Below are positions 4,566-51,265 of a stretch of DNA of 64,000 nucleotides, one piece after another (position 1 is the stretch's first letter; every line of letters begins with the position of its first letter). A model generated the notes under the pieces. That model had not been told where the DNA came from. It did no database searches and was given only the letters and a program-made list of their open reading frames with translations. The DNA is from Bhargavaea sp. CC-171006 (lineage in GTDB: Bacteria > Bacillota > Bacilli > Bacillales_A > Planococcaceae). A program made the translations under genes and the position numbers. The stretch is taken from positions 62,001 to 126,000 of the forward strand of contig NZ_QUZH01000033.1 of NCBI RefSeq assembly GCF_009761675.1, in the 5' to 3' direction.

Positions 4566-7559
4566 TCAGTCGCCATTTCCGTTGTTTTCATCTTTCGGTT
4601 TTTCTTCTTTTTTCTCTTCTTTCTTGTTGTCTCCATTTTCTTTGCCGCTATCGGAATCGCCGTTTCCGCTTTGGTCGCCGGATTGGTCTTTTTGGGGTTT
4701 CTTCTCTTCTTTGTCTTTATCCTTGTCCTTGTCTTGAGGCGGTGTGTCGTTCCCGGAATTGTTATCGCTGTTTTTATCAGCCGGCTTCTCGTCTTTGGGT
4801 TCACCTTTTGGTTCAGGCGCATCAGCCTTGATGACGTTTGACGGGCCTGACAGCTGTCCGGTGATATCAACGGCTCGGACGCTGTAGGTGCCAGGTGACG
4901 ATGCATTTACACTATAGGATCCGCCATATGCCACTGATGCAATTTTCTTGTCATCTTTGTAGACATAGTAGCCGACCACATCAGCGGAAGGGGAGTTGCT
5001 CCAGACGATGTTACCTCCCGAGCGTGAGGCGCCGGGTGCGACCGGAGCGCCGTCAATGCCGCTGTAGCTGCGTGCGGAGACGATATTGGTTCCGAACTTG
5101 GACCCGTTCGGGAAAAGTCCTGCCGGGTCACCGCCGTAAGGCGATAGCATGCGGTCCACGAAATCTTTGTTGATTCCTGCAGCACCGCTCTGGACGAATT
5201 CCTTCGGTGTCGACGGGAGGGCCTGATAGCGGGTTCCGCCTGCTATGACAAAGGAACCTCCTCCTGCACCGAAACTGTCGTCCGGCTTGTTCGGTACGTA
5301 AGTGTGGGCGTTGAACAGGTCAGAACGTACGAGCCCGGCCTTCTTGCAGGCCTCGGATGGTGCAAGGCCCGAGATTCCGCAGAAGGAGCGGGTAACGACA
5401 CCTTCCGGTTGCTGGAACCGTTCGCCTGCCGCCACAATGTCCGGAGCTACTTCATTCATGCCGTTCATGAGCCGCGCGAACAGCTTGTTCACCCGAGTGC
5501 TCGGCTGCAGGTCGCCTGATGTCATTCTTCCAAGGTTATACTTCTTCTCGTTATCATAGCCGAGCCAGACACCGAGCGTGACATTCGGGTTGTATCCCAT
5601 CATCCAGACGTCTCTATAGTTGTTGGTCGTACCACTCTTGGCCGCGAGATCGGATCTGAAATTCAGTTCGCGTCCCATGATGATGGCCGTACCGGATGAT
5701 ACCGTATCTCTCAGCATGTCAGTGACAAGATATGCCGTCTGCGGGCTGAATACGTCAACCGGCTCCGTCTTGTGTTCGTAGACCAGGGTGCCTTCGCTGT
5801 CTTCGATTCGCTCGATGATGTATGGCTTCACGAACTTTCCGCCGTTGGCAAGGGTTGAGAACCCGCCGACGTTCTGTTCGACGGATGCCGAGTAGACACC
5901 GAGCGCGGCGGAAGGGACGTTCCGCTGCGTATCTGCTATTTTGTTGAAATTCATCTTGTCGAGGAACTGGGTCGGGTCTTTGTCCGCGATCTTACCGAGT
6001 GTCCGGACGGCAGCCAGGTTATAGGATTTGGAAAGCGCCTCACGAGCAGGAACAATCCCGTATTGGCGGGCAGCGAAGAAGTTCTTCGGCTCCCAGCCCC
6101 CGATATTGGCCCAGACGTCCACGACCGGGCTGCCCGCGCCGATCATGCCAAATTCAATCGCAGGTCCGTATACAAGCAGCGGTTTGACGGATGATCCTAC
6201 CTGCCTGAAAGCACTGGTCGCATGGTTGGTCTGCTCAATCTCATGGTCACGGCCGCCCACAAAGGCGAGGATGCGGCCGGTGCCGTTTTCCACAGCCATG
6301 GATCCGACCTCGACGGGATTGAGCTCTTCGACCGATTCGCCGGTCTCGTTGTCGACTTTTGTCTCGGTCAGCGTAGGCCCGTAATACTCAAAGTTGTTCT
6401 TGATTTCCTGGAAGCGGTCATACAGGTCCTTTTTGATAGTTGAGTGGATCCGATAGCCGCCGCTTTCCAGGTCCCGTGCCGCCAGCTGCATATACTTGGC
6501 AAGGAGTTCAGATTCTTCGTCGAGCCTTGCCGGATCGATCCCATCCTTTTCAGCGAGGATCCGGGCGATGATCTCTTTTGCACGAGCCTGGATTTCAGGG
6601 GTCAGGAACGGATAACGTTCCGTTGCGCGCTGCTCCGGCTGTTTGAAGTCCTTTGTGATGTCATAGACGACAGCCTGTTCATATTCTTCCTGGGTGATGT
6701 AGCCGGTCTCCTTCATCCTGAACAGGACGGTTTTCATCCGCTCGATGCCCGGTTCAAGCTCTTCCGGTGTCTTCATACCCCGCTGGCCCGAATAAAACGG
6801 GGTGTAGAGGAATGGGGCTTGGGGAAGGCCGGCGATATAAGCCGACTGAGGAAGATTGAGTTCCTTCGGAGTGATGCCGAACAGCCCCTCCGCAGCTGTC
6901 GCGACACCGGCGATGTTCTGGCCTGATGCGTTGCGGCCATAAGGGATGATGTTCAGGTAGGCCTCTAGGATCTCATCCTTATTCATGAATTTCTCGAGGC
7001 GCATCGCCAGGAGAATCTCCTTCGCCTTCCGCTCGTAGGACACTTCGTTCGTCAGGATCTGGTTCTTGATCAGCTGCTGGGTCAGCGTCGAGCCCCCTGT
7101 CTGGGAGTCGGCGTTCGTCACGTCCTGGAACAGTCCCCGGAGAATCGCTTTAGGAACGATCCCCTCGTGTTCGCCGAAGTATTCGTCTTCGGTCGCAAGC
7201 ACCGCATTGATGAGGTGAGGGGAAACGTCGCCGAGCTTGGTCTCCCTCCGCTCGATATCCGCATTGACTTTGCCGAGATAGACCCCGTCGGCAAAGTACA
7301 ATTCGGACGTTTCCTCATAGGTCAGAACGGTCTGCCGCATTTCGTCCTTTGTTCGGAGAGGTTCTTCAACAACAAGCGAAGCGAAATAGCCCGCTCCGAC
7401 AGAACCGGCGAAGATTCCGAGCAGAACCCCCGTGACCCCGAAGAGGAGAAGAAGATTCCAGGCAACGCCCGATCCGATTCTGAGCCGCCTGCCCCATTGC
7501 GTTTCCTGGAACTCCGCGACTTTCTCTTCAATATATTTAAATGGATTTTTTGATTCCAC
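4566..7559 (-). CDS. Class A penicillin-binding protein 1A-like (glycosyltransferase/transpeptidase)
   Basis: A 997-residue bifunctional cell-wall synthase. A short cytoplasmic N-terminus precedes one membrane helix (~residues 32-58). The GT51 glycosyltransferase follows, with catalytic Glu124 in ATEDEYF and the GGSTLTQQ motif near 155-162. The transpeptidase has SxxK at Ser456-Lys459, SxN at 512-514 and KSGT at 641-644. After that comes an FN3-like domain (~845-925) and a ~70-residue tail rich in Lys, Glu, Asp and Asn. The tail is low complexity and probably lies outside the membrane near the wall. RBS GGGGGGATCC precedes the ATG. The gene resembles PonA/PBP1. Its promoter region abuts the left prophage attachment site. 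Confidence 0.9.
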   Translation of the reverse strand: MESKNPFKYIEEKVAEFQETQWGRRLRIGSGVAWNLLLLFGVTGVLLGIFAGSVGAGYFASLVVEEPLRTKDEMRQTVLTYEETSELYFADGVYLGKVNADIERRETKLGDVSPHLINAVLATEDEYFGEHEGIVPKAILRGLFQDVTNADSQTGGSTLTQQLIKNQILTNEVSYERKAKEILLAMRLEKFMNKDEILEAYLNIIPYGRNASGQNIAGVATAAEGLFGITPKELNLPQSAYIAGLPQAPFLYTPFYSGQRGMKTPEELEPGIERMKTVLFRMKETGYITQEEYEQAVVYDITKDFKQPEQRATERYPFLTPEIQARAKEIIARILAEKDGIDPARLDEESELLAKYMQLAARDLESGGYRIHSTIKKDLYDRFQEIKNNFEYYGPTLTETKVDNETGESVEELNPVEVGSMAVENGTGRILAFVGGRDHEIEQTNHATSAFRQVGSSVKPLLVYGPAIEFGMIGAGSPVVDVWANIGGWEPKNFFAARQYGIVPAREALSKSYNLAAVRTLGKIADKDPTQFLDKMNFNKIADTQRNVPSAALGVYSASVEQNVGGFSTLANGGKFVKPYIIERIEDSEGTLVYEHKTEPVDVFSPQTAYLVTDMLRDTVSSGTAIIMGRELNFRSDLAAKSGTTNNYRDVWMMGYNPNVTLGVWLGYDNEKKYNLGRMTSGDLQPSTRVNKLFARLMNGMNEVAPDIVAAGERFQQPEGVVTRSFCGISGLAPSEACKKAGLVRSDLFNAHTYVPNKPDDSFGAGGGSFVIAGGTRYQALPSTPKEFVQSGAAGINKDFVDRMLSPYGGDPAGLFPNGSKFGTNIVSARSYSGIDGAPVAPGASRSGGNIVWSNSPSADVVGYYVYKDDKKIASVAYGGSYSVNASSPGTYSVRAVDITGQLSGPSNVIKADAPEPKGEPKDEKPADKNSDNNSGNDTPPQDKDKDKDKEEKKPQKDQSGDQSGNGDSDSGKENGDNKKEEKKEEKPKDENNGNGD

Positions 7560-7585: not shown

Positions 7586-7614
7586 ATTATACCATAATAC
7601 AACGTGGTTCCGGG
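7586..7614 (-). promoter_or_regulatory. Probable extended -10 promoter of the PBP gene, abutting attL
   Basis: On the minus strand TATGGTATAAT gives an extended -10 with TATAAT at 7591-7586, 27 bp upstream of the ATG. Seventeen base pairs further upstream the -35 position (CCCGGA, 7614-7609) is poor and falls on the conserved core of the phage attachment repeat. No experimental support. Confidence 0.5.
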
Positions 7615-7622
7615 AACCTATT
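7588..7622. other. attL: left prophage attachment repeat
   Basis: This 35-bp stretch matches 49508-49542 at 27 of 35 positions without gaps. It includes TATACCATA at the left end, the 7-bp identical block CCGGGAA (7610-7616) and CTATT at the right. The integrase gene lies immediately to the right, as expected for attL. Seven identical base pairs inside a wider imperfect repeat is what a tyrosine recombinase overlap with core-type sites would give. The exact crossover point is inferred. Confidence 0.65.
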
Positions 7623-7658
7623 GGCAGCACTGGCTCGGCGGCCGATCGGCGTATGGGC

Positions 7659-7678
7659 TCCCCCAAAATCTCCCCCAA
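7659..7678. promoter_or_regulatory. Putative integrase arm-type site (left)
   Basis: TCCCCCAAAATCTCCCCCAA matches 49370-49389 at 18 of 20 positions, in the same orientation. It is itself a double TCCCCCAA. It sits 43 bp inside the attL core and overlaps the 3' end of the integrase gene. Two copies either side of a core is the standard attP arrangement for arm-binding integrases. Confidence 0.55.
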
Positions 7679-7679
7679 T

Positions 7680-8897
7680 TCATAGATTTAGGGCGTTTGC
7701 GAACAGGGTGACGGACTCTTCTTTCAAGTCATCAATAGCATGTCCATAAATCTTCATAATCATTTCGGCAGTGTTTCCTAAACGTTCAGCGACATCATGG
7801 ACCGGCAGACCCTGGGTGAGTAGCAAGGTGGCATGGGTATGACGCAACCCGTGAAGGGTGATGTTTGGTATCCCTAAGTCGTGGCGCCTCAGAAAATCTT
7901 TTAGGTAACGTTGGCAGGCGGAAGCGCTGATCGGGACGCTTTGAGTTGAGACAAAGGCAAAATCACTTTCGGAGTGACCTTTCCCATGCCGCAGTTTTAG
8001 AGCCTTGGTCCAAAGCTTGTAGCTCACCAGCATGTCGATGATTTGGCTATCAATCATAATGGTTCGCTGACTGTTTAGCGTCTTCGGGGACCGGACCCCT
8101 TTGGTGTCCCGCGTCCTGTTCACTGTGATGGTCCTTTTTTGTGCGTCGATATCCTCCCAGGTGAGACCAAGCGCTTCACCTAACCGCAATCCAGAGTATG
8201 CCAGAAGATGAAAGAGGGCGCTATGGGTGGGCAGCGCATGATCACTGACCGCCTTTAAGAAAGCATTTAACTGCCTTGCATCGAGAAAGGCGGTCTTTTT
8301 CCTCGTCTCATCGACGGACATCCCACTAAACCGATTCCTCGGAAGGTATTCGTCGTCAACGGCTGCATTCACCACGATCATGAAGGTCTGATGATAAAGG
8401 TGAACGGTCCGTTGAGCCAGCTTCTGATGCAGGACATTAAGAAATTCTCGTTCATAGGTGGTCCTGTCGAGAGAGGATAACTTATATCTTCCTATTAAAG
8501 GCTTAATATAATTATTAATTATACCCTCCCGATGATCCCGTGTGGATACCTTCCATTTATGTTGTTTCGTGTCGAACCAGATATCTACCCATTCGGATAC
8601 CGTCATGTTCGATTTTTCGATTTGCCGAGTCTCTCCGTTAAATATGGATGCCTTTACTTCAAGTAGGGCGCGAATGGCCGCATTTTCCGAAGGCAGTCCC
8701 TGTTTCGACTTCTCCCGCCGTTTGCCAAGGGCATCGTAATATCGCATCCGGTAGCCCCACTTCTTTTCCTTCTTGCCAGTGTAGTAATAGAAAACTTCCT
8801 TCTCCTTCTTCGATGGGAATCGTTCCATCTCATTGATCTCCCTTTCTTTCGCGTGGACAGACGCATGTGGGGGAGGGGACGGAAGTGTTGACATCAC
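7680..8897 (-). CDS. int: Phage integrase, tyrosine recombinase
   Basis: Up to 405 residues. Arm-binding N-terminus (~30-70) with the usual WGYRMRYYDALGKRRE segment, SAM-like core-binding domain (~98-190), catalytic domain from ~205. Catalytic residues: Arg238 (SGLRLGEAL), Lys272, His349 and Arg352 (HGLRHTH), Tyr384 (MKIYGHA). The usual LGH is LGN here (Asn375). The longest frame begins with GTG at 8897, but the ATG at 8828 (MERFPSKK) has a better placed GGGAG and may be the true start. It should integrate and excise the prophage at the CCGGGAA core. Confidence 0.93.
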   Translation of the reverse strand: MMSTLPSPPPHASVHAKEREINEMERFPSKKEKEVFYYYTGKKEKKWGYRMRYYDALGKRREKSKQGLPSENAAIRALLEVKASIFNGETRQIEKSNMTVSEWVDIWFDTKQHKWKVSTRDHREGIINNYIKPLIGRYKLSSLDRTTYEREFLNVLHQKLAQRTVHLYHQTFMIVVNAAVDDEYLPRNRFSGMSVDETRKKTAFLDARQLNAFLKAVSDHALPTHSALFHLLAYSGLRLGEALGLTWEDIDAQKRTITVNRTRDTKGVRSPKTLNSQRTIMIDSQIIDMLVSYKLWTKALKLRHGKGHSESDFAFVSTQSVPISASACQRYLKDFLRRHDLGIPNITLHGLRHTHATLLLTQGLPVHDVAERLGNTAEMIMKIYGHAIDDLKEESVTLFANALNL

Positions 8898-13432: not shown

Positions 13433-14380
13433 ATGCAAGCTGAATCACTGAAGAATGTGTTGCAGATGGACCGTTCGGAATGGCTTGAGGAACGACGCCG
13501 TGGAATTGGAGGTTCGGATGCCAGTGTGATTCTGGGCGTGAACAACTGGAAGTCAAAGTTCCAGCTGTATCTCGAGAAGACCGGTGAATACACCGAGGAA
13601 GTCAACAATGAATATATCTACTTCGGAAATATTTTGGAGGATATCGTCGCTCAAGAGTTCGCACGACGGACCGGTAAGAAAGTCCGCCGGAACAACCGGA
13701 TGCTCGTTCATCCAAAGCACGAGTTCATGAGGGCAAACCTTGACCGGGTCGTCGTCGGGGAGAAAGCAATCCTCGAATGCAAGACGACAAGCGCCTGGAA
13801 CGCTGATCAATGGGAGGGCGAGGACATCCCGGCCTCTTATATCTGCCAGGTGCAGCATTACATGGCAGTGACCGGTTACGAGAAAGCCTACATCGCTGTC
13901 TTGATCGGCGGCAACCGGTTCGTCTGGAAGGAAATTGAACGGGACGAAGAACTGATCGACATCATGATCGAGCGTGAAGCGGATTTCTGGTACAACCACG
14001 TGCTCGCCGGTGTACCGCCTGAGATTGATGGCAGCCCAGCGGCCGGCGAACTGCTCGCGAAGCTTTACCCGAATGACGATGGGGAGACGATAATGCTCAC
14101 TCAGTCCGACGATGAACTGCTCGATGCTCTGGAATCCATCAAAGCCGAATTGAAAGAGCTCGAAACGGTCAAGAAGCAATACGAGAACCGATTGAAACAG
14201 ACCCTCGAGAACAGCCCTCACGGCGTCTCTCCAAGGTTTGAAGTCACTTACAAGTCACAGGTCCGGAACACCATCGACTCTAAGCGTCTGCGTGAAGAGT
14301 TGCCGGATATCGCACAGAAATTCACCAAGGAATCGAAGGCCCGCATTCTGCGGATCAAGAAGCTCGAGGAGGCTAACTGA
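13433..14380 (+). CDS. yqaJ: YqaJ-family viral recombinase exonuclease
   Basis: 315 residues of the lambda-exonuclease-like YqaJ family. RRRGIGGSDAS lies at ~21-31; the PD-(D/E)xK core is ANLDR (Asp104) and LECKTT (Glu115, Lys117), followed by VQHYMAVTGY. The C-terminal third is a coiled coil. It should resect double-stranded DNA ends 5' to 3' so that RecT can anneal strands; the recT gene overlaps its stop codon by one base. GAGGAGGG precedes the ATG. Confidence 0.93.
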   Translation: MQAESLKNVLQMDRSEWLEERRRGIGGSDASVILGVNNWKSKFQLYLEKTGEYTEEVNNEYIYFGNILEDIVAQEFARRTGKKVRRNNRMLVHPKHEFMRANLDRVVVGEKAILECKTTSAWNADQWEGEDIPASYICQVQHYMAVTGYEKAYIAVLIGGNRFVWKEIERDEELIDIMIEREADFWYNHVLAGVPPEIDGSPAAGELLAKLYPNDDGETIMLTQSDDELLDALESIKAELKELETVKKQYENRLKQTLENSPHGVSPRFEVTYKSQVRNTIDSKRLREELPDIAQKFTKESKARILRIKKLEEAN

Positions 14381-15273
14381 TGGCAACTGTAAACGAACTA
14401 AAGAAGCAAGTTTCAAAGGCACCTCAACAGGCTCAGAAGCAGCCGAAGACAATCGAGGACTACCTGAAGCAGATGGCGCCGGCGATGGCCGAGGCGCTGC
14501 CGAAGCACATGAATATCGACCGGCTTACGCGAATCGCACTCACCACCATCCGCACGACTCCAGATCTCCGACATGCCGACCCGGCAAGCTTGCTCGGCGC
14601 TGTCATGCAGGCTGCACAGCTTGGATTGGAGCCTGGCCTTCTCGGCCACTGCTACCTGCTTCCGTTCAAAAACAGCAAGAAGGGCATCACCGAGGTTCAG
14701 TTCATCATCGGCTACAAAGGGATGATAGACCTGGCCCGCCGGTCCGGCCATATCGAATCCATTTACGCCCATTCGGTTTACGAGAACGACGAATTCGAAT
14801 ATGAGCTCGGACTGGATCCGAAGTTGGTCCACCGGCCGACGATGGACGTCAACAAAGGCCAGTTCATTGGCGCCTATGCCGTTGCCAAATTCAAAGATGG
14901 CGGCTACCAGATGGAATTCATGAGCCGCGCGGACATCGAGCAACGGAAGAAGCGTTCAAAGGCTGCCAACTCGAGCTACTCACCTTGGACCACAGACTAT
15001 GAGGAAATGGCTAAGAAGACGGTCGTCCGGCACATGTGGAAGTACCTGCCGATCTCCATCGAGGTCCAGGAGCAGGTCGAGTACGACGGCGGCACAGGGC
15101 GCAGTATCAAGGATGTTACACCGGATGATGGAATGTTCCTCGAGGCTCCGGACTACGAAGTTTTGGACATGCCTCAAACGGCTGCTGAGGAGCCGGAGAA
15201 AGAGCCGGTACCGGTCGCAGAGGAGAAACCCGGCAAACAGAAGGCCGCTGAAGCTTTAGGGAAACTGGTGTGA
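14380..15273 (+). CDS. recT: RecT single-strand annealing protein
   Basis: 297 residues with the RecT family pattern: LLGAVMQAAQLGLEP (~69-83), FIIGYKGMIDLARRSG (~107-122) and PWTTDYEEMAKKTVVRHMWK (~200-220). The C-terminal ~50 residues are charged and disordered. It anneals complementary single strands and works with the upstream exonuclease in phage recombination and concatemer formation. Start ATG overlaps the exonuclease TGA. Confidence 0.95.
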   Translation: MATVNELKKQVSKAPQQAQKQPKTIEDYLKQMAPAMAEALPKHMNIDRLTRIALTTIRTTPDLRHADPASLLGAVMQAAQLGLEPGLLGHCYLLPFKNSKKGITEVQFIIGYKGMIDLARRSGHIESIYAHSVYENDEFEYELGLDPKLVHRPTMDVNKGQFIGAYAVAKFKDGGYQMEFMSRADIEQRKKRSKAANSSYSPWTTDYEEMAKKTVVRHMWKYLPISIEVQEQVEYDGGTGRSIKDVTPDDGMFLEAPDYEVLDMPQTAAEEPEKEPVPVAEEKPGKQKAAEALGKLV

Positions 15274-15296: not shown

Positions 15297-15322
15297 CATC
15301 ATCAGAAAGGGATGAGCTTTGA

Positions 15323-16225
15323 ATGAGTGGATGGATAAAGTTGCATCGGCAGATTTTTGATAGCGACCTATGGAGTGATGTTGTCGCCTTCCGACTCTTC
15401 ACATACCTGCTGATGATGGCAGCGCATCAGGATGGTATCAAAATCAACGGTATTGAGTTGAAGCGCGGACAGTACATCAGATCCTACCGAAACCTCGCAA
15501 AAGACCTGGGTTATGTAGAAAAAAGAGGGGTCAAACAGCACTCGATTAGCACCATTAAGCGGAACGTCGAAAAACTTGTTAAGTCCGGTAGAGTGAACGC
15601 CATCGAAACGGATTACGGAACGCTGTTCACCATCGTTAACTACGATAAGTACCAGGGTTCAAGGGATGCTTCAGAGGATAAACGGAACACCCAAAACGAG
15701 TTTTACGGAACGTCATCGGAACGACAACGGAACGCGATTGGAACGTTATCGGAACAAGAACAAGAATGTAAGAACTTAAGAATGCAAGAAGATATATCTA
15801 CTACACCTACAACAGGCGACGGATTCGTCGAAGCCTACAACTTTATCAATTATCAAATTGTCGGGCTGAATGATTTTCAAAGGCAGGATCTTGAATGCTG
15901 GTATGACGATTTCAACCAAGACAAAGAGGTCCTGATGGAGGCCGGTCGGATAGCTGCTGACCGTAACCGTAAAAATTACGGGTTCATCAAAGGGCGCTTA
16001 AAAGAGTGGGCTGACAACAAGTGTAACAGCATTCAAGACGTTCGCTTGTATGAGCAGAACAAGTTCAGTAAGCAAACAAACGTCCGTCAATTCGCGCCTC
16101 GCAATAAGCAAGCGGTCGGAGGGTCCTTGTACGACCCATCACCCGAAACACTGGAACGCCAACGCCGAGCCATAGAAAACTTCAATCCTCAACAAATCAC
16201 TGACGACTCTGATCTTCCGTTCTGA
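15323..16225 (+). CDS. DnaD-type replication initiator / replisome organizer
   Basis: 300 residues. The winged-helix N-terminus (WIKLHRQIFDSDLWSDVVAF, then a HTH-like SISTIKRNVEKLVKSGR) is typical of phage replisome organizers. A disordered low-complexity linker (~115-165) leads to a DnaD-like C-terminal domain (~167-225, NFINYQIVGLNDFQRQDLEC and GFIKGRLKEWA). It probably binds the origin and loads the helicase through the DnaC-type protein encoded next. The DNA coding for the linker holds an 11-bp iteron array that is probably the origin itself. Confidence 0.85.
   Translation: MSGWIKLHRQIFDSDLWSDVVAFRLFTYLLMMAAHQDGIKINGIELKRGQYIRSYRNLAKDLGYVEKRGVKQHSISTIKRNVEKLVKSGRVNAIETDYGTLFTIVNYDKYQGSRDASEDKRNTQNEFYGTSSERQRNAIGTLSEQEQECKNLRMQEDISTTPTTGDGFVEAYNFINYQIVGLNDFQRQDLECWYDDFNQDKEVLMEAGRIAADRNRKNYGFIKGRLKEWADNKCNSIQDVRLYEQNKFSKQTNVRQFAPRNKQAVGGSLYDPSPETLERQRRAIENFNPQQITDDSDLPF
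15684..15800. other. Putative phage replication origin with iterons
   Basis: GGAAC(G) begins at 15684, 15707, 15718, 15729, 15740 and 15751; the last five are spaced exactly 11 bp apart. Since 11 is not a multiple of three, protein repetition does not explain the spacing. AAGAA then recurs at 15762, 15770, 15778 and 15786 (8-bp spacing), and an AT-rich stretch with GATATATCTA follows. Iterons plus an AT-rich unwinding region inside an initiator gene is the lambda-O-like layout. Confidence 0.6.
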
Positions 16226-16236
16226 GGAGGGACAAC

Positions 16237-17091
16237 ATGCAAGCGATAAACGAGGGCACGTTCACCTTCATGGGTCTCCGCATGGTCGACATCTTCTTCA
16301 AGGTCCGGCCGGAGATGATTGAACGTGCTGAGGAAGTCGAGATGGGAACCATCACTTGCCCGAGCTGCAAAGAAAAGTCGCTGGATGCCTGGATCTACCT
16401 GGAGAACGGGGAGTGGCAGGCAGAGAAGGTCTGGAGTATCTGCAAGCCCTGCCAGCAGGAGGCCCTTTCGAAAAAGATCACCCGAGACCTGATGAAAAAG
16501 CGTCAGGAGGTCATAGAGGGCAGCTAGTACCACGTTCCGGATAGTGACGAGTCGGGCTTCAAGAACTTCGAAGCACTCGACGAGCAGACGCGGGTCGCTC
16601 TGGAAAACGCCAAAGCATTCGCCCGGGTCATCGCCGCTGGTGGGGTCGGTAACCTCCGAATCGCCGGATCGACCGGCACCGGTAAGACTCACCTTGCCAA
16701 AGCAATTGCCCGGACGGCCAAGCATGCTGGCATTAACGTCGCTTTCATCGAAGCTGCCAAGCTGTTCGAAATGATCAAGGCCACATTCGGCAACGATTAC
16801 GAGCGGCGGAGGTTGGACGAGCAGTTTGCCGGGTTCGACGTGATGGTGATTGATGACATCGGCGTCGAGACCAAAAAGCGGGACGAAATCTCTTGGACCA
16901 GTTCGGAATGGGTCAAGCTGATCGACATGCGCAAGGACAAGAGCACGATCTACACCACCAACTTTGATGACGATTCACTCCGCAAGGTGATCGGTGCCCG
17001 GGCAGAGTCCCGGATGAGTGTGAATGCCGTAACCATCGACCTGTTCACCAGCAAGGACTACAGAAAACGATCACAGGGGGAGCAATTATGA
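16237..17091 (+). pseudogene. DnaC-like AAA+ helicase loader interrupted by an in-frame TAG
   Basis: One continuous frame of 285 codons is split by TAG at codon 97 (16525-16527). The first part (96 residues) has a CPSC...CKPC zinc-binding pair. The second begins YHVPDSDESGFKNFEAL and carries Walker A GSTGTGKTH and Walker B VMVIDDIGVE, as in DnaC/DnaI-type ATPases. After the TAG there is no ATG, GTG or TTG in frame before 16771, which lies beyond Walker A, so an independent ATPase start is not available. Either the gene is a nonsense mutant, or the amber codon is read through, or the base is a sequence error. The loader would deliver the host replicative helicase to the phage origin. Confidence 0.85.
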
Positions 17092-17309
17092 ACCAAATCG
17101 AGAAGCAAGCCGACGCCGTCCTGAACACACCGGAATACCTGGCGGGCGCCCTAATCATCGCGGTCGGCCAGTGGAACGACTCCGGCCAGCAGGACGAGCA
17201 GCTGGAGCGCGTGGCAACCGAGTACCTGGAAAGGCTGCAGGCTGCACTTAGGACGGATCGGGACGGCGCGGTGGCGTATCTGCTAGGGATGGAGGTGCAG
17301 GCGGCGTGA
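17088..17309 (+). CDS. Small phage protein, unknown
   Basis: 73 residues, acidic and helical (begins MNQIEKQADAVLNTPEYLAG). ATGA overlaps the end of the helicase-loader frame, indicating coupling. No domain recognised. Confidence 0.6.
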   Translation: MNQIEKQADAVLNTPEYLAGALIIAVGQWNDSGQQDEQLERVATEYLERLQAALRTDRDGAVAYLLGMEVQAA

Positions 17310-17782
17310 GGGCGATCAAGTTCAGTGCTATCTATAAGCCAACCGGAGAGCATTTTGTTCCTTGGAAGATTGATTTTAATAATCAGTCGGTAGTGGGCAG
17401 CTTCGATGGACAAGAAGGTGATTGGTGTAATTTTTCACTGGATGGCAACAGAGGGGATGCGATTTTGCGTCAATTCACCGGGCTGCACGACAAGAAGGAG
17501 CGGGAGATTTATGAGGGGGATGTGTTGCACTGCTTTGGCTCTTTCGGCACCAAGCACAAGTACGAAGTGAAATTCGGACTGTACGAGCAGGACGGTAGTG
17601 GCGGTGAGTACGGACCAAGTATTTGCCTTGGCGTTTATGCGGAATCTCTCGAGAAAGACAAACGGAATGAATATGGATCGCTCGTAATTCATGAGGAAGA
17701 TCATACCAAGTCGTTACTCGAGTTTGAAGAATACGAAGTCATTGGCAACATCCACGAGAACCCAGAACTGCTGAACGGCTAA
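17306..17782 (+). CDS. YopX-family phage protein
   Basis: 158 residues from GTG at 17306, overlapping the previous stop as GTGA. The block LRQFTGLHDKKEREIYEGDV and the C-terminal YEVIGNIHENPELL are hallmarks of YopX (SP-beta) proteins, common in the early regions of Firmicutes phages. The fold is beta-rich; function is unknown. Codon use is somewhat more AT-rich than its neighbours. Confidence 0.85.
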   Translation: MRAIKFSAIYKPTGEHFVPWKIDFNNQSVVGSFDGQEGDWCNFSLDGNRGDAILRQFTGLHDKKEREIYEGDVLHCFGSFGTKHKYEVKFGLYEQDGSGGEYGPSICLGVYAESLEKDKRNEYGSLVIHEEDHTKSLLEFEEYEVIGNIHENPELLNG

Positions 17783-22269: not shown

Positions 22270-22731
22270 ATGACACAGGGCATCTTTGTTTTGCAAACGT
22301 TAGTCGAGAAGATTCGTAACTCATATCATGGTGCAAACACAGCTCACAGTATCCTTGTAGATTCAGAACACTATACTGAGGAAAAGCCATATGAGCTTGC
22401 GATGGCCATGATGAACAATTCAGCGATCTATATTACGGCAGCTCAAGCGTACTATGATCAAAATGAAATTGTACATGGCTTCAGTGAAATTACAGCTTAT
22501 TTTGATGCGTTTTTCGATTTACAGAATGAGTTATTTGAAGTTCTTGAGGTGAAAGAGCGCAATCTATCTTGGTTCCAATCTAGATATGACAGATTTAGCA
22601 ATGCCATAGGAGACATTGAGCAACTAATGAAAAGGGAAAATGATAATTTTCAAGTATTACAAGAAGAAAAGAGAACGAATTCAAAAGCTTACAAAGAAAA
22701 TGCACACAAATTTATTTCAAAAGGAAAATAG
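22270..22731 (+). CDS. Phage accessory protein, unknown
   Basis: 153 residues, almost entirely alpha-helical, with a coiled-coil-prone C-terminal third (RYDRFSNAIGDIEQLMKREN onward). The gene is visibly more AT-rich than its neighbours and lies between late regulator and terminase with a terminator on each side, so it looks like a recently acquired accessory gene. GGGGGTGGAGAG precedes the ATG. No family recognised. Confidence 0.6.
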   Translation: MTQGIFVLQTLVEKIRNSYHGANTAHSILVDSEHYTEEKPYELAMAMMNNSAIYITAAQAYYDQNEIVHGFSEITAYFDAFFDLQNELFEVLEVKERNLSWFQSRYDRFSNAIGDIEQLMKRENDNFQVLQEEKRTNSKAYKENAHKFISKGK

Positions 22732-22740
22732 GGTTTTCAA

Positions 22741-22765
22741 GGCATCCTACGGGGTGCTTTTTTGT
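22741..22765 (+). terminator. Terminator before the moron lipoprotein
   Basis: GGCATCC-TACG-GGGTGC followed by TTTTTTG. It ends the transcript of the preceding AT-rich gene. Confidence 0.7.
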
Positions 22766-22779
22766 ATTTCAAATCATCA

Positions 22780-22808
22780 TTGGAATTCATTCCTGAAATA
22801 GGTAAAAT
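22780..22808 (+). promoter_or_regulatory. Promoter of the moron lipoprotein gene
   Basis: TTGGAA (22780-22785), 17-bp spacer, TAAAAT (22803-22808). It lies directly between an upstream terminator and the lipoprotein ribosome-binding site, so this gene can be expressed independently of phage operons. Confidence 0.65.
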
Positions 22809-22827
22809 GATTTCAGGAGGGATAACG

Positions 22828-23148
22828 ATGAAAAAGCTAATCTTAATTCTACTGGCAGGAGTTTTTCTGCTTGGGGCTTGTAGCTCAACACCAGAACCAG
22901 ACTACACAACCGAACAACTTGAGTCCGCCTTGAATGATGGCGAAAATCCTGAAGGGAAAATAGTTTCGGTCAAAGTCGATGAATTGGTTCCTGACAGCGC
23001 ATTTGGTTATAACATTCAAACGGGTGAGCATTTGAACTTTGTTTCGAGTGAAAACCCAGATGTTAAAGTAGGCGACGAAATCGTTGTTAAGGTCGAGAAG
23101 GTCGAAAGCCTAATGGGTTCATACATCATTACTTACGAACAGCAATAA
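22828..23148 (+). CDS. Moron lipoprotein, unknown function
   Basis: 106 residues from ATG 22828 (CAGGAGGGATAACG upstream). Signal peptide MKKLILILLAGVFLLGACSS with the lipobox LGAC. The remaining ~85 residues look like a small beta-barrel, OB-like domain (GKIVSVKVDELVPDS and VKVGDEIVVKVEKVES). It has its own promoter and terminator, the definition of a phage moron. A role in altering the lysogen surface, such as superinfection exclusion, is possible. Confidence 0.75.
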   Translation: MKKLILILLAGVFLLGACSSTPEPDYTTEQLESALNDGENPEGKIVSVKVDELVPDSAFGYNIQTGEHLNFVSSENPDVKVGDEIVVKVEKVESLMGSYIITYEQQ

Positions 23149-36164: not shown

Positions 36165-36401
36165 ATGAGTGAAAAAGAGGTTAATTACGAACCAATTCGT
36201 AGCGATATTTACATCGGATCTAGAAATGCAGATGTAGTTTGGTCAAGGGCAGAGGAGACAACAAAGCTGGACCGCATCGAGCGGAAATTGGATAAGCTCC
36301 TCAACCTTGTGGAAGGCAAAGAGCTTTCAGTGAAAATTGATGGTGCCGAAATCATTGATGCTATCACAAAAGCTGACCGTCTAAAACGAGCCCGGATTTA
36401 A
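36165..36401 (+). CDS. Small tail-region protein, unknown
   Basis: 78 residues with a short coiled coil (TKLDRIERKLDKLLNLVEGK). TGAGGAGGGATTGG precedes the ATG. A strong terminator follows, marking the left edge of an accessory insertion. No family recognised. Confidence 0.6.
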   Translation: MSEKEVNYEPIRSDIYIGSRNADVVWSRAEETTKLDRIERKLDKLLNLVEGKELSVKIDGAEIIDAITKADRLKRARI

Positions 36402-36411
36402 ATAATCAATT

Positions 36412-36463
36412 AGGAGCTCCAACTTGCCGAATCCATGGAGGAACGAGTGGAGCTCCTCGTTTT
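36412..36463. terminator. Terminator at the left edge of the accessory cassette
   Basis: AGGAGCTCCA (36412-36421) and TGGAGCTCCT (36448-36457) form a perfect 10-bp stem followed by CGTTTTAATC. It would stop late tail transcription before the counter-oriented genes. Confidence 0.75.
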
Positions 36464-36507
36464 AATCTAGGTATGGAATCTAGGTGTGGAAAGGTTACAA
36501 GAGTGAA

Positions 36508-36708
36508 TTAATTAATGACAAATTCGATTGATCTGATTTCGTTTACTTTTAGCGGGATCTGACCGTTAGAACCATAAACAACAACATCAGAATTATTTGC
36601 TTGAGTTGTTTTTAATTTTTCGAAAAAATTCTTATCGAAATAGTCTGGAACTCCGTCGATAATTATCGATTGTCCATTTTTTAAATTCACCCGGGTCTCT
36701 ATTTTCAT
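36508..36708 (-). CDS. Small accessory protein, counter-oriented, unknown
   Basis: 66 residues from the ATG at 36708, with AAGGTGG nine bases upstream; a longer frame to 36879 lacks one. Predicted small alpha/beta protein (MKIETRVNLKNGQSIIIDGV). It runs against the tail operon and is AT-rich. Together with the next minus-strand gene it forms a leftward cassette. No family recognised. Confidence 0.55.
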   Translation of the reverse strand: MKIETRVNLKNGQSIIIDGVPDYFDKNFFEKLKTTQANNSDVVVYGSNGQIPLKVNEIRSIEFVIN

Positions 36709-36748
36709 TATGTCTGACCACCTTTTCATTTTTATTGGAGTGAGTTGA

Positions 36749-36862
36749 ATGATAAATGATTTTATCGACCTAACACAGGGACAACTATTGTTGAAATACT
36801 GGTGGCTTTGGTTGATTATCGTGATAATTGGCGTGGTAAATTTAAAGAAAAGTTCATCATGA
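36749..36862 (+). CDS. 37-residue membrane protein in the accessory cassette
   Basis: ATG 36749 with TTGGAGTGAG upstream encodes MINDFIDLTQGQLLLKYWWL, a hydrophobic helix and a KKSSS tail. It lies on the plus strand between the two leftward genes and overlaps the end of the 208-aa gene by 6 bp tail to tail. Function unknown. Confidence 0.45.
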   Translation: MINDFIDLTQGQLLLKYWWLWLIIVIIGVVNLKKSSS

Positions 36863-37483
36863 TAGACAAAACTCTGCAAAGTTGCGCCCTAACTTAGAGA
36901 GTTTGACGCTTTCAGCAAGCGCATTGTCTACGCCACCACCAACGTTCATATTACCTGTATAGACTTCGAGAAGCCCTAAGGTTCTAAACTTATTGATCGA
37001 AGCCAAGATGATATAAGGGTCATCAATGAAAGGAGATTCTATGTTGGAAACGGGAACGGCATGTTCTTGTTTGTATAGCAATACAAGCATCTCAATATCC
37101 AATTCAGAGAGAGAATCAAGTGCATCTAAGTAGTATTCTTCGTTCTGATAAGTGGAGCTATTTACACCTTGAATTAAAGCATTTATGAAGAAAGTCTTGA
37201 ATTTCTCTTGTTTTATTTCACGAGCTTCCCTTTCAATCTTCCTGGACACCTTTTCAATCAACATGGAGAGATATTCATCGTCGTGATAGCTATTTCTTAC
37301 AACGTCGGTGAGTTGTTCATCAAAACTTTTAATAGTACTAGCAACATCAGAATAAAACTTTTCCAGCCGTTCTTTTTCCTTTTTGGCTTTGGTAGAAGAA
37401 TATACAGTCGCCAAACTTCCGCCAACGTAGGGGATTAAGCTTAAGCCTGCAGCAATAACGGTAACCTTGTTATCCTCTTGAAT
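36857..37483 (-). CDS. Counter-oriented accessory protein with glycine-rich hydrophobic N-terminus
   Basis: About 208 residues. The N-terminus (VTVIAAGLSLIPYVGGSLAT) is a glycine-rich hydrophobic segment. The middle is coiled coil (KAKKEKERLEKFYSDVASTI), and the C-terminal ~90 residues look like a winged helix. The only well placed initiator behind the strong GGGAGGTGATT site is AUU at 37483 or 37486; GTG at 37492 is only 3 nt or less from it. AT-rich, opposite to the late operon, so probably expressed in the lysogen. Membrane-active defence or immunity is one possibility; the family was not recognised. Confidence 0.6.
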   Translation of the reverse strand: MQEDNKVTVIAAGLSLIPYVGGSLATVYSSTKAKKEKERLEKFYSDVASTIKSFDEQLTDVVRNSYHDDEYLSMLIEKVSRKIEREAREIKQEKFKTFFINALIQGVNSSTYQNEEYYLDALDSLSELDIEMLVLLYKQEHAVPVSNIESPFIDDPYIILASINKFRTLGLLEVYTGNMNVGGGVDNALAESVKLSKLGRNFAEFCLS

Positions 37484-37538
37484 AATAATCACCTCCCTCC
37501 CGTCTGTCACCATTCGACAGCAGGATAGGAAATCCTTC

Positions 37539-37561
37539 AAGAAAGGAGGAAATCAGTGGAA
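37539..37561 (+). repeat. Duplicated ribosome-binding/start region, left copy
   Basis: Matches 38143-38165 at 21 of 23 positions, including AAGAAAGGAGGAAA and a start codon (GTG here, ATG there) followed by GAA. This copy opens only a four-codon frame (GTG GAA GTT CAC TGA). It looks like the remnant of the original tail-gene start left by insertion of the DUF2441 gene. Confidence 0.6.
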
Positions 37562-37594
37562 GTTCACTGAATTGATGACTAAAGGAGGGGGACT

Positions 37595-38113
37595 ATGAAA
37601 GAAGTTAATGGTGAGGTTTTTTACCATATCAATTCAAAGAGCAACCACAACCCTTATGATCTTTTGAGGATAGGTGACAAATTCAAAGTTGGAGATAAGT
37701 TAAATCCTTTCATGAAATTGTACGAAGACGAGGCACCACCACTTGAACTAGATCGGAAAGTATTATTTAATGCAGCAGTTTTCTATTGGCACTATACAAG
37801 GGAAATAACTCTTGAGCAGATCAGGCTATCGATTAACAATGAATTGCCTTCCAGGTTTAATTCCTTATGGGTCACTGATTACGATCGAATCCAAAGATGG
37901 CGACAGCAATTTGCAAAATCAGAGCATCAGGTTTTAGAACTCTCGCTGACCGGTCAAATCTTTCAATGTGATGCAGGTTGGGTTGAGGGCAACCCCATTC
38001 CGTTGTCTACTTTACGACAGAAAGCCGGGTATTACTGGTCTGGGGAAATAGTTAAGCCTGACAGCTTAGAGTATTTATTCGAAGGTGAAGCAGAAGTGAT
38101 AAGAATTTTATAG
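37595..38113 (+). CDS. DUF2441-like protein, possible ADP-ribosyltransferase
   Basis: 172 residues. FYHINSKSNHNPYDLLRIGD at the N-terminus, LEQIRLSINNELPSRFNSLW in the middle, then YDRIQRW and a C-terminal YYWSGE follow the DUF2441 pattern. I recall this family as belonging to the ADP-ribosyltransferase superfamily, in which case His11 would be the NAD-binding residue. The gene is AT-rich, sits between Dit-region genes and the tail tip gene, and is framed by a duplicated ribosome-binding site. It is probably a moron; a toxin or anti-phage effector role is a hypothesis. Confidence 0.65.
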   Translation: MKEVNGEVFYHINSKSNHNPYDLLRIGDKFKVGDKLNPFMKLYEDEAPPLELDRKVLFNAAVFYWHYTREITLEQIRLSINNELPSRFNSLWVTDYDRIQRWRQQFAKSEHQVLELSLTGQIFQCDAGWVEGNPIPLSTLRQKAGYYWSGEIVKPDSLEYLFEGEAEVIRIL

Positions 38114-46289: not shown

Positions 46290-47321
46290 ATGAAAATCGT
46301 GGACATCAGGCACAAGACACCGCGAACAAACGGCACCCGGTTGCTTTCCCGTATCAAGAACATTGCTCGTCACCATTCAGCAACACCGACAGGGAGCTGG
46401 GAAAGCTTCTGGCCGCATTGGAGGGACGTCAAGAAATGGGGGACTGGCGGCTACCATGAAATCATCTTGAGGGATGGTACCATTCAGCTCTGCTACGATC
46501 CGGAAGAAATTACGAACGGCGTAGGAGGACAGAACAGCTACATCTACCACATCTGTGTCGTCGGCAACGGGTCCTTCACAGCGGCGCAGGAGCGAGCGTT
46601 TGAGGAGCGTGCCCGGTACTGGATGACACGCTTCAATCTCCCTGTCAGCGCTGTTAAGGGTCACCGGGAGTTCCCGGGGGCGAATACGACCTGCCCTGGA
46701 ATCAATATGGATACGGTCCGTGCGCGGCTTGCCGGTGGAAATGTGACCCATGCGACTACACCATCCACGCCAGCAGTCAAGTCAGCGGTTAAGCCATCCA
46801 CACCGTCTAATGGATCCATCGTGGACTACCTTAACAAGCAAGGCCGGGATAGCTCACTGGCGGCGCGGAAGAAGCTCGCGGCACAATACGACATTAAAGG
46901 TTATACGGGTACAGCGTCGCAAAACCTGCAGCTCCTGGGCAGGCTCAAGAGTGGGGCAAAACCGGTGGCCAAGCCTGCCCCGAAGGTTCCTGCCTACAAT
47001 GGCGAATCCATCGTTGATTATCTCAACATGCAGGGCCATGACAGTTCCCTCTCTGCACGTAAACGCCTGGCCGAGCAGTACGGCATCAAAAACTACACCG
47101 GCACCGCTGCACAAAATACGCAGCTGCTGGAAAAGTTGCAGTCAGGATCCGCACCGAAATCCAAGCGGATCGATACAGACTCGATTGTCGACTTCCTCAA
47201 AGCGACCGGCCAGTCGTCCAGTCTTTCACATCGAAAGAAGCTAGCGGAGAAGCACGGCATCAAGAACTACAAGGGAACTGCCGCTCAAAATAAGAAGTTG
47301 CTGGATATTCTGAATAAGTGA
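46290..47321 (+). CDS. Endolysin: N-acetylmuramoyl-L-alanine amidase with three C-terminal repeats
   Basis: 343 residues. The Amidase_2 domain (~1-150) has zinc ligands in ARHHS (His28/29), KGHREFPG (His125) and TTCPG (Cys135), and the substrate-side Tyr of GGYHEI. Three ~50-residue repeats follow (~170-340), each of the form SIVDYLNxQGxDSSLxARKK and YTGTAAQNTQLL, probably wall-binding. No signal peptide, so release depends on the holin next door. Stop is followed by two strong hairpins. Confidence 0.92.
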   Translation: MKIVDIRHKTPRTNGTRLLSRIKNIARHHSATPTGSWESFWPHWRDVKKWGTGGYHEIILRDGTIQLCYDPEEITNGVGGQNSYIYHICVVGNGSFTAAQERAFEERARYWMTRFNLPVSAVKGHREFPGANTTCPGINMDTVRARLAGGNVTHATTPSTPAVKSAVKPSTPSNGSIVDYLNKQGRDSSLAARKKLAAQYDIKGYTGTASQNLQLLGRLKSGAKPVAKPAPKVPAYNGESIVDYLNMQGHDSSLSARKRLAEQYGIKNYTGTAAQNTQLLEKLQSGSAPKSKRIDTDSIVDFLKATGQSSSLSHRKKLAEKHGIKNYKGTAAQNKKLLDILNK

Positions 47322-47537: not shown

Positions 47538-47556
47538 ATGCGGGAGGTGAATGATG

Positions 47557-48078
47557 ATGAATTCATATGATGCAACTATCATCGCAGGCTATATTGCACA
47601 CCGCGCATTGGAAACTGGGAAAAGATTAACAAACCTGCAATTGCAAAAAATATTATATTTTCTGCAGGCTTATTGGCTTAAGAATTTTGATACCCCTTTG
47701 TTCTCCGATGAAATCCAAAAGTGGAAGCTGGGTCCAGTGGTACCAGATGTATATCATGAGTACAAGGTGTTTGGATCTAGTCAAATATCTTACATACCAA
47801 AGATATTTGACATTGATGCAGAGAACTCGACATTTAAAATTGTTAACTTTTCACCTAATATGGTACATGATAACGATCGTCGTATTCTCGAGCGCATCAC
47901 CGACAACTTGAGTAATTATAGCGGGCGCGAACTCGTCAATATTACACATGAACATGAGCCTTGGTCAAAAGATGAGAAGAAGATTCTTAGCGGAGAAATG
48001 AAAATCCCTTATGACATTGAAGAAATAAAAGCATACTTCAAAGAAAATCCTGAAAAACTGGAGATTTGTAATGTATGA
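47557..48078 (+). CDS. Panacea/SocA-like (DUF4065) antitoxin-type protein
   Basis: 173 residues from the third of three consecutive ATGs (47551, 47554, 47557). TNLQLQKILYFLQAYWLKNF, the KWKLGPVVPDVYHEYKVFGS block and the C-terminal HEHEPWSK are hallmarks of the Panacea (SocA/GepA/DUF4065) domain. Panacea proteins are known as versatile antitoxins paired with many unrelated toxins. The gene overlaps the next by 8 bp and both are AT-rich, so they form a two-gene operon beside attR. SocA in Caulobacter acts as a proteolytic adaptor; that mechanism here is speculation. Confidence 0.88.
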   Translation: MNSYDATIIAGYIAHRALETGKRLTNLQLQKILYFLQAYWLKNFDTPLFSDEIQKWKLGPVVPDVYHEYKVFGSSQISYIPKIFDIDAENSTFKIVNFSPNMVHDNDRRILERITDNLSNYSGRELVNITHEHEPWSKDEKKILSGEMKIPYDIEEIKAYFKENPEKLEICNV

Positions 48079-49198
48079 TCTTATTAGTATTATGAGAGAG
48101 CTTTCATCTGAATGGATTGGAAACGACGAGACTAAGGTTGCGTCGTTTCTTTCACGTTTCAAGGATTTTTATAATTTCAATGAAAGGCACCAGTATAGCC
48201 AAATTACCGCATTTATTTATACCGGCATTAGTGACCCGGAAAGAGATCTCTTAGGAGAAAACCTACAATTAGTATTGGAAGAGGCAATTCTGGAAGAGGC
48301 ACTCGGCGAGATAAGTGTAGCTAAGCAGATTGGAAAAATAATTGATCATATTAACTTAGCCGCAAGTCAAAAAACTTTAATTGAGAACCTCTCATACAAT
48401 GCATTGGAATTAGTAGAACGGCGTGCGGAATCCTTGAAAACACAAGAAAAAAAGATTCAAGAGCAAGCAAAAATTTTGGATGATGAGATTAAGGACTTGA
48501 AGGAAAAAGAACGTTCACTTGTTACTCAATTTGTGACTATACTTGGGATCTTTGCTTCTATCATTTTCGCTGCATTCGGCGGTTTCCAAATCATATCTAA
48601 TACAATAAACCATTTGTCATCCGATTTAAGAATTGGGATGTTAATGATTTTCTCAAGTATGGTTATGATAGGCGTCGTAGTCCTTCTTTATGTGTTATTG
48701 AATGGTATAGCAAAGATTACTGGCCAAAATTTCAGATCTTGTGGGTGCGACGGCAACAATAATGTTGACTGCGACCATTCAATGCTCGAGAAGTATCCTG
48801 TATTTTGCGTGGTACTAGTTATCTTGTTTTATTTCTTCTTCCTCGGTTTATCAGCTTTTGTTTTTGATTACGGTTTAATATTTAATCGCATTTTTGAAAT
48901 TAATTTTATATCCTCTTTATTAAAGGTTATAGCAATAGGAATACTTATGTTGTGGCCTGCCCCGTTGCTATGGAAACACTTTTTCCCACGCAACAAACTA
49001 AAGAAAGAACGTTCCCGAGTAAAGTTTATTTATCAACTTCTTCTTCAAGCTCTATTAAAATTCAGGAATATATTCGGTTCTAATGAACCAGAAGACAAAA
49101 TTAATAAAGATAATACTAAGACATCTCAAAATTCCCTTGGTGCAACTTCGGAGCAATCAGCGACTAATGAAGACTCTAATTCAAGAGAACAACAATAA
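48071..49198 (+). CDS. Four-helix membrane protein, candidate Panacea-neutralised toxin
   Basis: 375 residues. A cytoplasmic helical N-terminal domain (~1-110), a coiled coil (~110-150, RAESLKTQEKKIQEQAKILD), then membrane helices at ~151-176, 189-213, 243-266 and 279-300. A Cys cluster lies in the central loop (CGCDGNNNVDC, Cys224/226/234), and the C-terminal ~60 residues are polar and disordered. The ATG lies inside the antitoxin gene, as for many toxin partners. Membrane-damaging toxins partnered by Panacea are known, but I recognise no family for this one. It could alternatively be a phage-exclusion protein. Confidence 0.7.
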   Translation: MYDLISIMRELSSEWIGNDETKVASFLSRFKDFYNFNERHQYSQITAFIYTGISDPERDLLGENLQLVLEEAILEEALGEISVAKQIGKIIDHINLAASQKTLIENLSYNALELVERRAESLKTQEKKIQEQAKILDDEIKDLKEKERSLVTQFVTILGIFASIIFAAFGGFQIISNTINHLSSDLRIGMLMIFSSMVMIGVVVLLYVLLNGIAKITGQNFRSCGCDGNNNVDCDHSMLEKYPVFCVVLVILFYFFFLGLSAFVFDYGLIFNRIFEINFISSLLKVIAIGILMLWPAPLLWKHFFPRNKLKKERSRVKFIYQLLLQALLKFRNIFGSNEPEDKINKDNTKTSQNSLGATSEQSATNEDSNSREQQ

Positions 49199-49369: not shown

Positions 49370-49389
49370 TCCCCCAATAACTCCCCCAA
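49370..49389. promoter_or_regulatory. Putative integrase arm-type site (right)
   Basis: TCCCCCAATAACTCCCCCAA, 18/20 identical to 7659-7678, about 140 bp left of the attR core. After excision the two copies would flank the attP core at about -140 and +43. Confidence 0.55.
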
Positions 49390-49507
49390 ATGGTTGGTGT
49401 AAAATAAGCCCTTTTGGAAAACTGGCCTGCAGTCCAATTTCTTTAAAAACGCGTCATCTCAACGTCTCACTAAACACAAATTGACCCTTCAAATTCCGGC
49501 ATTACTA

Positions 49508-49542
49508 TATACCATATAGCGACAGGGTCCCGGGAATCTATT
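49508..49542. other. attR: right prophage attachment repeat
   Basis: 35-bp ungapped imperfect repeat of 7588-7622 (27/35), with TATACCATA, the identical CCGGGAA core at 49530-49536 and CTATT. Chromosomal DNA with the tyrS leader resumes to the right. From 49199 to 49700 there is no gene: only the terminator, arm site and attR. Confidence 0.65.

Positions 49543-49996: not shown

Positions 49997-51265
<1,269 letters not shown>

Follow-up and report, generated by a model that had tools for sequence, protein, structure and literature searches.

A probable recent nonsense mutation in the DnaC-like helicase loader gene of a Bhargavaea prophage

Does an amber codon in the middle of a phage helicase loader gene mark a broken gene, a stop that is still read through, or an error in the assembly? 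The question is raised by a plus-strand reading frame of 285 codons, counting the TAG and the final stop, that lies at positions 16237–17091 of a 64,000-nucleotide stretch of the Bhargavaea sp. CC-171006 genome (the whole stretch analysed, here called the window) and carries TAG as its codon 97 (16525–16527). An earlier note on this DNA had described the frame as a split loader and had proposed these same three options. Our results indicate that a recent single nonsense mutation probably truncated the DnaC-like loader of a temperate tailed-phage prophage in which the main modules are otherwise recognised.

The profile of PHROG 50 (DnaC-like helicase loader) matched residues 26–279 of the frame unbroken, with the stop written as X (E 4.4e-48), and because this match extends across the TAG, the frame represents one gene and not two neighbours, in agreement with the earlier description. 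The N-terminal part alone also matched PHROG 50 (E 8.6e-4), while the downstream half matched the Pfam families IstB_IS21 (E 2.8e-13), Bac_DnaA (E 1.7e-7) and AAA (E 4.3e-6), and the profile of the full-length loader matched DnaC and DnaI chains of the PDB over the ATPase half (best E 2.6e-27). In this half, Walker A, Walker B and the sensor motifs were assigned by eye. An open run of 187 codons follows the TAG, the chance of which is about 5e-4 at the local base composition. The absence of an in-frame ATG, GTG or TTG between the TAG and Walker A was borne out by an in-frame scan, which found just the weak candidates CTG (codon 122) and ATC (codons 132 and 142); with the TAG in place and no such start before Walker A, the two domains are not carried by a single open frame. 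No promoter-like site was found on the plus strand within 15300–17400. Full-length loader DNA is present once in the host draft genome (3,266,877 bases in 32 contigs), where the only other DNA match is a stretch of 39 bases on a different contig, and the loader search found no second homologue in the host genome at E 0.001.

The zinc-type N-terminus proposed earlier is supported, as a domain with putative metal binding, by four cysteines (Cys41, Cys44, Cys69 and Cys72) that are invariant in all eight aligned loader N-domains. Its predicted structure had a mean pLDDT of 82.8; a comparison of the model with the PDB gave nothing at E 0.001 or better (best E 1.0), and a sequence profile search gave no convincing match (best E 0.041). 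Helicase binding by the domain would be expected from knowledge of the family, given that in DnaI and DnaC the contact with the helicase is attributed to the N-terminal domain and the ATPase to the AAA+ domain (PMC4887207). The loaders of Anoxybacillus phage A403 and Bacillus phage Pascal, both in PHROG 50, have the same domain order as that of the window and likewise lie directly after a DNA replication or DnaD-type gene (tblastn identity to the window loader 44.7% and 32.0%, respectively), but their frames are open, whereas that of the window has the amber at codon 97. ORF013 of Staphylococcus phage 77, which the same source describes as a phage DnaI homologue that binds the host helicase (PMC4887207), belongs, by this description, to the same loader family and presumably has the same role.

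Table 1. Coordinates of the split loader, of other prophage genes and of the flanking host genes in the window.
Feature	Positions	Strand	Match or remark
Penicillin-binding protein gene, flanking	4566–7559	-	
Integrase, prophage left end	7680–8897	-	PHROG 1, E 7.7e-73
RecE-like/YqaJ exonuclease, open frame	13433–14380	+	PF09588, E 9.9e-41; PHROG 434
RecT annealing protein, open frame	14380–15273	+	PF03837, E 1.6e-59
DnaD-like (DnaB_2) replication initiation protein, open frame, upstream partner of loader	15323–16225	+	PF07261, E 2.9e-9; PHROG 2514, E 1.2e-31
Loader, four-cysteine domain (first 96 codons)	16237–16524	+	Sole part expected to be translated
Loader, in-frame amber (codon 97)	16525–16527	+	Conserved Trp column of linker
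Loader, AAA+ ATPase half with final TGA stop	16528–17091	+	Translation not expected
Endolysin, near prophage right end	46290–47321	+	PHROG 2307/5182/822
Tyrosyl-tRNA synthetase gene, flanking	50000–51265		

The loader frame lies directly downstream of the DnaD-like gene, within a prophage that spans the region from the integrase to the endolysin or slightly further (Table 1). Regulators, terminases, portal, scaffold, capsid, tail and holin were also recognised by family matches, so that the view of the rest of the phage as intact holds at the level of modules, from integrase to endolysin, among the open reading frames that were scanned. Direct repeats of 9–10 bases, of the types TATACCATA and CTCCCCCAAA, occur at both ends of the prophage, near 7588–7679 and 49370–49516, and are suggestive of sites that may serve for attachment or as arm sites of the integrase; a 13-base repeat (7446/47974) was dropped as an attachment site because its right copy falls within a gene. 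At the right end, a plus-strand region (47551–49198) contains a gene for a SocA/Panacea-domain, antitoxin-like protein (PF13274, E 2.0e-22) that overlaps by 8 bases with a gene for a 375-residue protein with weak matches to membrane proteins, and the two form a possible toxin-antitoxin pair. Between the distal tail and tail-tip genes (36401–37600), a minus-strand frame for 227 residues (36857–37540; weak match to PHROG 11520) looks like a gene added into the tail module. A search of the window with Rfam gave nothing at gathering score.

The use of stop codons in the prophage gives little support to an altered code. The 48 hand-listed genes other than the loader end in TGA (32), TAA (13) and TAG (3), and the TAG at 22729–22731 is followed, 8 bases on, by the start of a terminator-like hairpin (22739–22760), which indicates that TAG works as a stop there. 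This TAG was also the only one besides that of the loader to join two frames of at least 80 codons in a scan of the plus strand. The amber-split frame that it forms (22270–23148, with an extension of 138 codons) was at first taken as support for read-through, but is better explained as two genes separated by the hairpin, since the downstream gene has a start of its own and opens like a lipoprotein gene. That downstream gene (22828–23148, plus strand) lies past the hairpin and before the small terminase gene; its small product matches PHROG 9078, a family with no assigned function, and has a weak match to a Cor superinfection-exclusion family. ARAGORN found no tRNA in the window, and none of the 17 complete tRNA genes that it found in the host draft, at 19 family matches, would read amber; this set is plainly incomplete, and a host amber suppressor could be among the many expected tRNAs that are missing from the draft. 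Phages that have reassigned TAG (genetic code table 15) resemble the window loader in having TAG inside a coding frame. However, such phages are described as losing much of their coding capacity under the standard code, and an amber-reading tRNA is reported for 375 of 715 of them (PMC11210395, in part), whereas the window has one split gene, TAG ends other genes, and neither many in-frame TAG codons nor a phage tRNA for amber was found.

Comparison with relatives identified the residue that has been lost. In a ten-row alignment every row but that of the window has Trp at the amber column, and the next column is an invariant Tyr; among 20 partly redundant rows with E < 1e-60 the amber column holds Trp in 18, Leu in one and the stop in the window itself; the Gln codon (CAG) that had been expected in homologues occurs in none. 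In distant matches, for which the alignment is less sure, the column is mostly Ala, Ser or a gap, so the conserved Trp belongs to the close subfamily. The stop thus replaces a residue that intact relatives encode and conserve, as is characteristic of a nonsense pseudogene.

Stops at this position appear to be confined to the window. Loader matches at E 1e-10 or better were found in 45 of 261 genomes of the host family, at 48 places, three of which were flagged for TAG: the window, locus L055 (genome G164) and locus L046 (genome G199). The TAG of L055 was rejected as a loader stop because it terminates the upstream gene instead. In a class-level sample of 398 genomes, 36 genomes matched at E 1e-25, at 39 places, none of which had a stop apart from the window. 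A further scan covered 204 fetched loci, drawn from 80 of 269 and 80 of 497 relatives; they are partly redundant and exclude additional copies of the window locus, and 448 phage records matched by tblastn were left aside. They yielded 207 profile matches, four of which had a stop inside the match: two internal (window and L046) and two at the very edge (L010 and L254), which were dropped from the internal count because they sit at the start and end of their matches. No other match among the 204 loci has a stop at the amber column of the window, a pattern that differs from the conservation of position expected of programmed read-through.

The second split loader, L046, shares with that of the window a TAG in the linker, aligned with window residue 90 and thus 7 codons before codon 97, but it stops at a different and variable column, has a GTG as the third codon past the TAG that could restart the ATPase half, and has lost one of the four cysteines. 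Its DnaD-like and TAG-split DnaC-like pair (L269:14857-16547, G199:C30) has few other phage genes near it. Among the 43 open reading frames listed around L046, 28 were scanned against profiles, and besides this pair most of them either resembled enzymes or had no match. They included a thymidylate synthase, a dihydrofolate reductase, acetyltransferase, NUDIX and sporulation proteins, peptidase- or endolysin-type proteins, and one protein of 636 residues that matched a minor-tail/lysin family. For none of the 28 was the top match a terminase, major capsid or tape-measure gene; secondary cross-matches to portal, head or tail families came from one NUDIX-type protein, one peptidase-type protein and one other. 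Judged by this gene content, L046 looks as if it lies in a phage remnant. In the window's loader frame, 101 one-base changes create a stop and 57 of these give TAG; two random one-step nonsense positions fall within 7 codons of each other in 7.2% of draws, so the shared linker position of the two ambers is weak evidence of anything beyond chance.

To judge the age of the lesion, we compared pairwise identities of the ATPase half. The window's identity was 0.55 to L045, 0.57 to L046, 0.54 to L047, 0.52 to L048, 0.52 to A403 and 0.39 to Pascal, compared with 0.48–0.63 among pairs of L045, L047, L048 and A403, and 0.41–0.44 between Pascal and these four. The value for the window and Pascal is therefore slightly low and the other five are not, so that by this measure the half past the stop is not clearly accelerated. 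With no sign of long relaxed evolution, either the stop arose recently or the gene remains in use, and the absence of relaxation is as expected for a recent mutation. Stops in prophage genes are not rare: RecT, taken as a control in the same 261 genomes, had an in-frame stop in 3 of 24 places (E 1e-25; these three were not checked individually, and two of them are partial matches). According to a survey of in-frame stops, the mobilome is the gene category in which they occur most often, and pseudogenization is among the fates that prophages can meet (PMC7918605).

Three kinds of alternative explanation compete with a recent nonsense mutation. If the amber were a base error in a draft assembly of 32 contigs, the loader gene would be intact, which would agree with the unaccelerated ATPase half and with the lack of any other noticed lesion in this prophage, the main modules of which are recognised. 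However, the copy of this DNA in IMG/VR (UViG_2890873656_000001) shows no difference across 6852 bases, nor across a second stretch of 9916 bases that overlaps the first in part; it probably comes from the same isolate and is hence not independent, and neither viral_contigs nor, for close relatives, genome_contigs supplied an independent copy of the prophage. We consider a base error unlikely. If leaky termination or a suppressor tRNA let some ribosomes pass the amber, full-length loader would still be made. The 187 open codons speak for this, the unaccelerated ATPase half is also compatible with a gene expressed in this way, and the survey cited above argues that many conserved in-frame stops are not pseudogenes (PMC7918605). 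The stop of the window, however, has no counterpart among the 204 loci, where the close subfamily has Trp, and neither the tRNAs detected nor the termination of other prophage genes at TAG favours its translation. Recoding or programmed read-through thus receives little support from the sequence comparisons, and we regard translation through the amber as quite improbable. Among the options of the earlier note, a lysogen with a nonsense mutation is accordingly the best supported, and recoding or read-through is disfavoured because TAG ends other genes, no amber-reading tRNA was seen and intact relatives have a sense codon; a base error keeps the small likelihood given above.

It is also conceivable that the truncation itself was selected, the 96-residue domain persisting because it serves as a decoy that binds the helicase or as an exclusion factor, and that linker stops recur for this reason. 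The TAG of L046 in the same linker would fit such a history, as would the binding of helicase by the N-domains of DnaI and DnaC and of the host helicase by a phage loader homologue (PMC4887207, in part). However, two random nonsense positions lie this close in 7.2% of draws, 57 of the 101 one-step stops are TAG, L046 apparently lies in a remnant and has lost a cysteine, and the modelled N-domain found no PDB counterpart within the threshold. Selection for truncation therefore seems very unlikely to us. In its extended form, the idea is that amber codons recur in the linker of prophage loaders because a free N-domain helps the lysogen, for example by occupying the loader site of the host helicase and so preventing the replication of incoming phages that depend on a loader of this type; we give this barely any weight.

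A recent nonsense mutation would have direct consequences for the prophage. Under the standard code, termination at codon 97 would leave a 96-residue four-cysteine domain with no AAA+ ATPase. By analogy with DnaI and DnaC, the phage should then be unable to load helicase by itself, and because the search found no second homologue in the host genome at E 0.001, loading of the host helicase at the phage origin probably fails after induction. It would then probably be replication-defective and at an early stage of decay; a lysogen "locked" by the nonsense mutation, as proposed earlier, is plausible. A DnaI encoded by the host itself (E 1.9e-28) might stand in, weakly or partly, for the broken loader. 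This DnaI was missed by the loader search, which would likewise miss other distant loaders.

Recombination offers another potential route of rescue. In a genome of the same genus (G002), the RecE-RecT genes of locus L271 (G002:C3:185000-203000) have 80% DNA identity to those of the window over query positions 1–2035, and are followed by an open DnaC-like loader (L271:10549-11412; PHROG 50, E 5.7e-48) that differs from the window's and was not matched by the window-loader search at E 0.001. The different replication module past RecE-RecT in L271 is in itself a sign of mosaic exchange at this point. Related RecE-RecT genes next to a different, open loader suggest that recombination could replace the broken gene.

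We found no paper on this case in the literature, in a search of open-licence papers. If read-through or selection were demonstrated, the locus would show a loader interrupted close to the linker for which the role of an autoregulatory switch has been proposed (PMC4887207). The amber looks instead like ordinary decay of a resident prophage rather than a new reading of the genetic code. For annotation, this means that the amber in the loader is no ground for assigning an altered code, and that the prophage should be listed as probably replication-defective.
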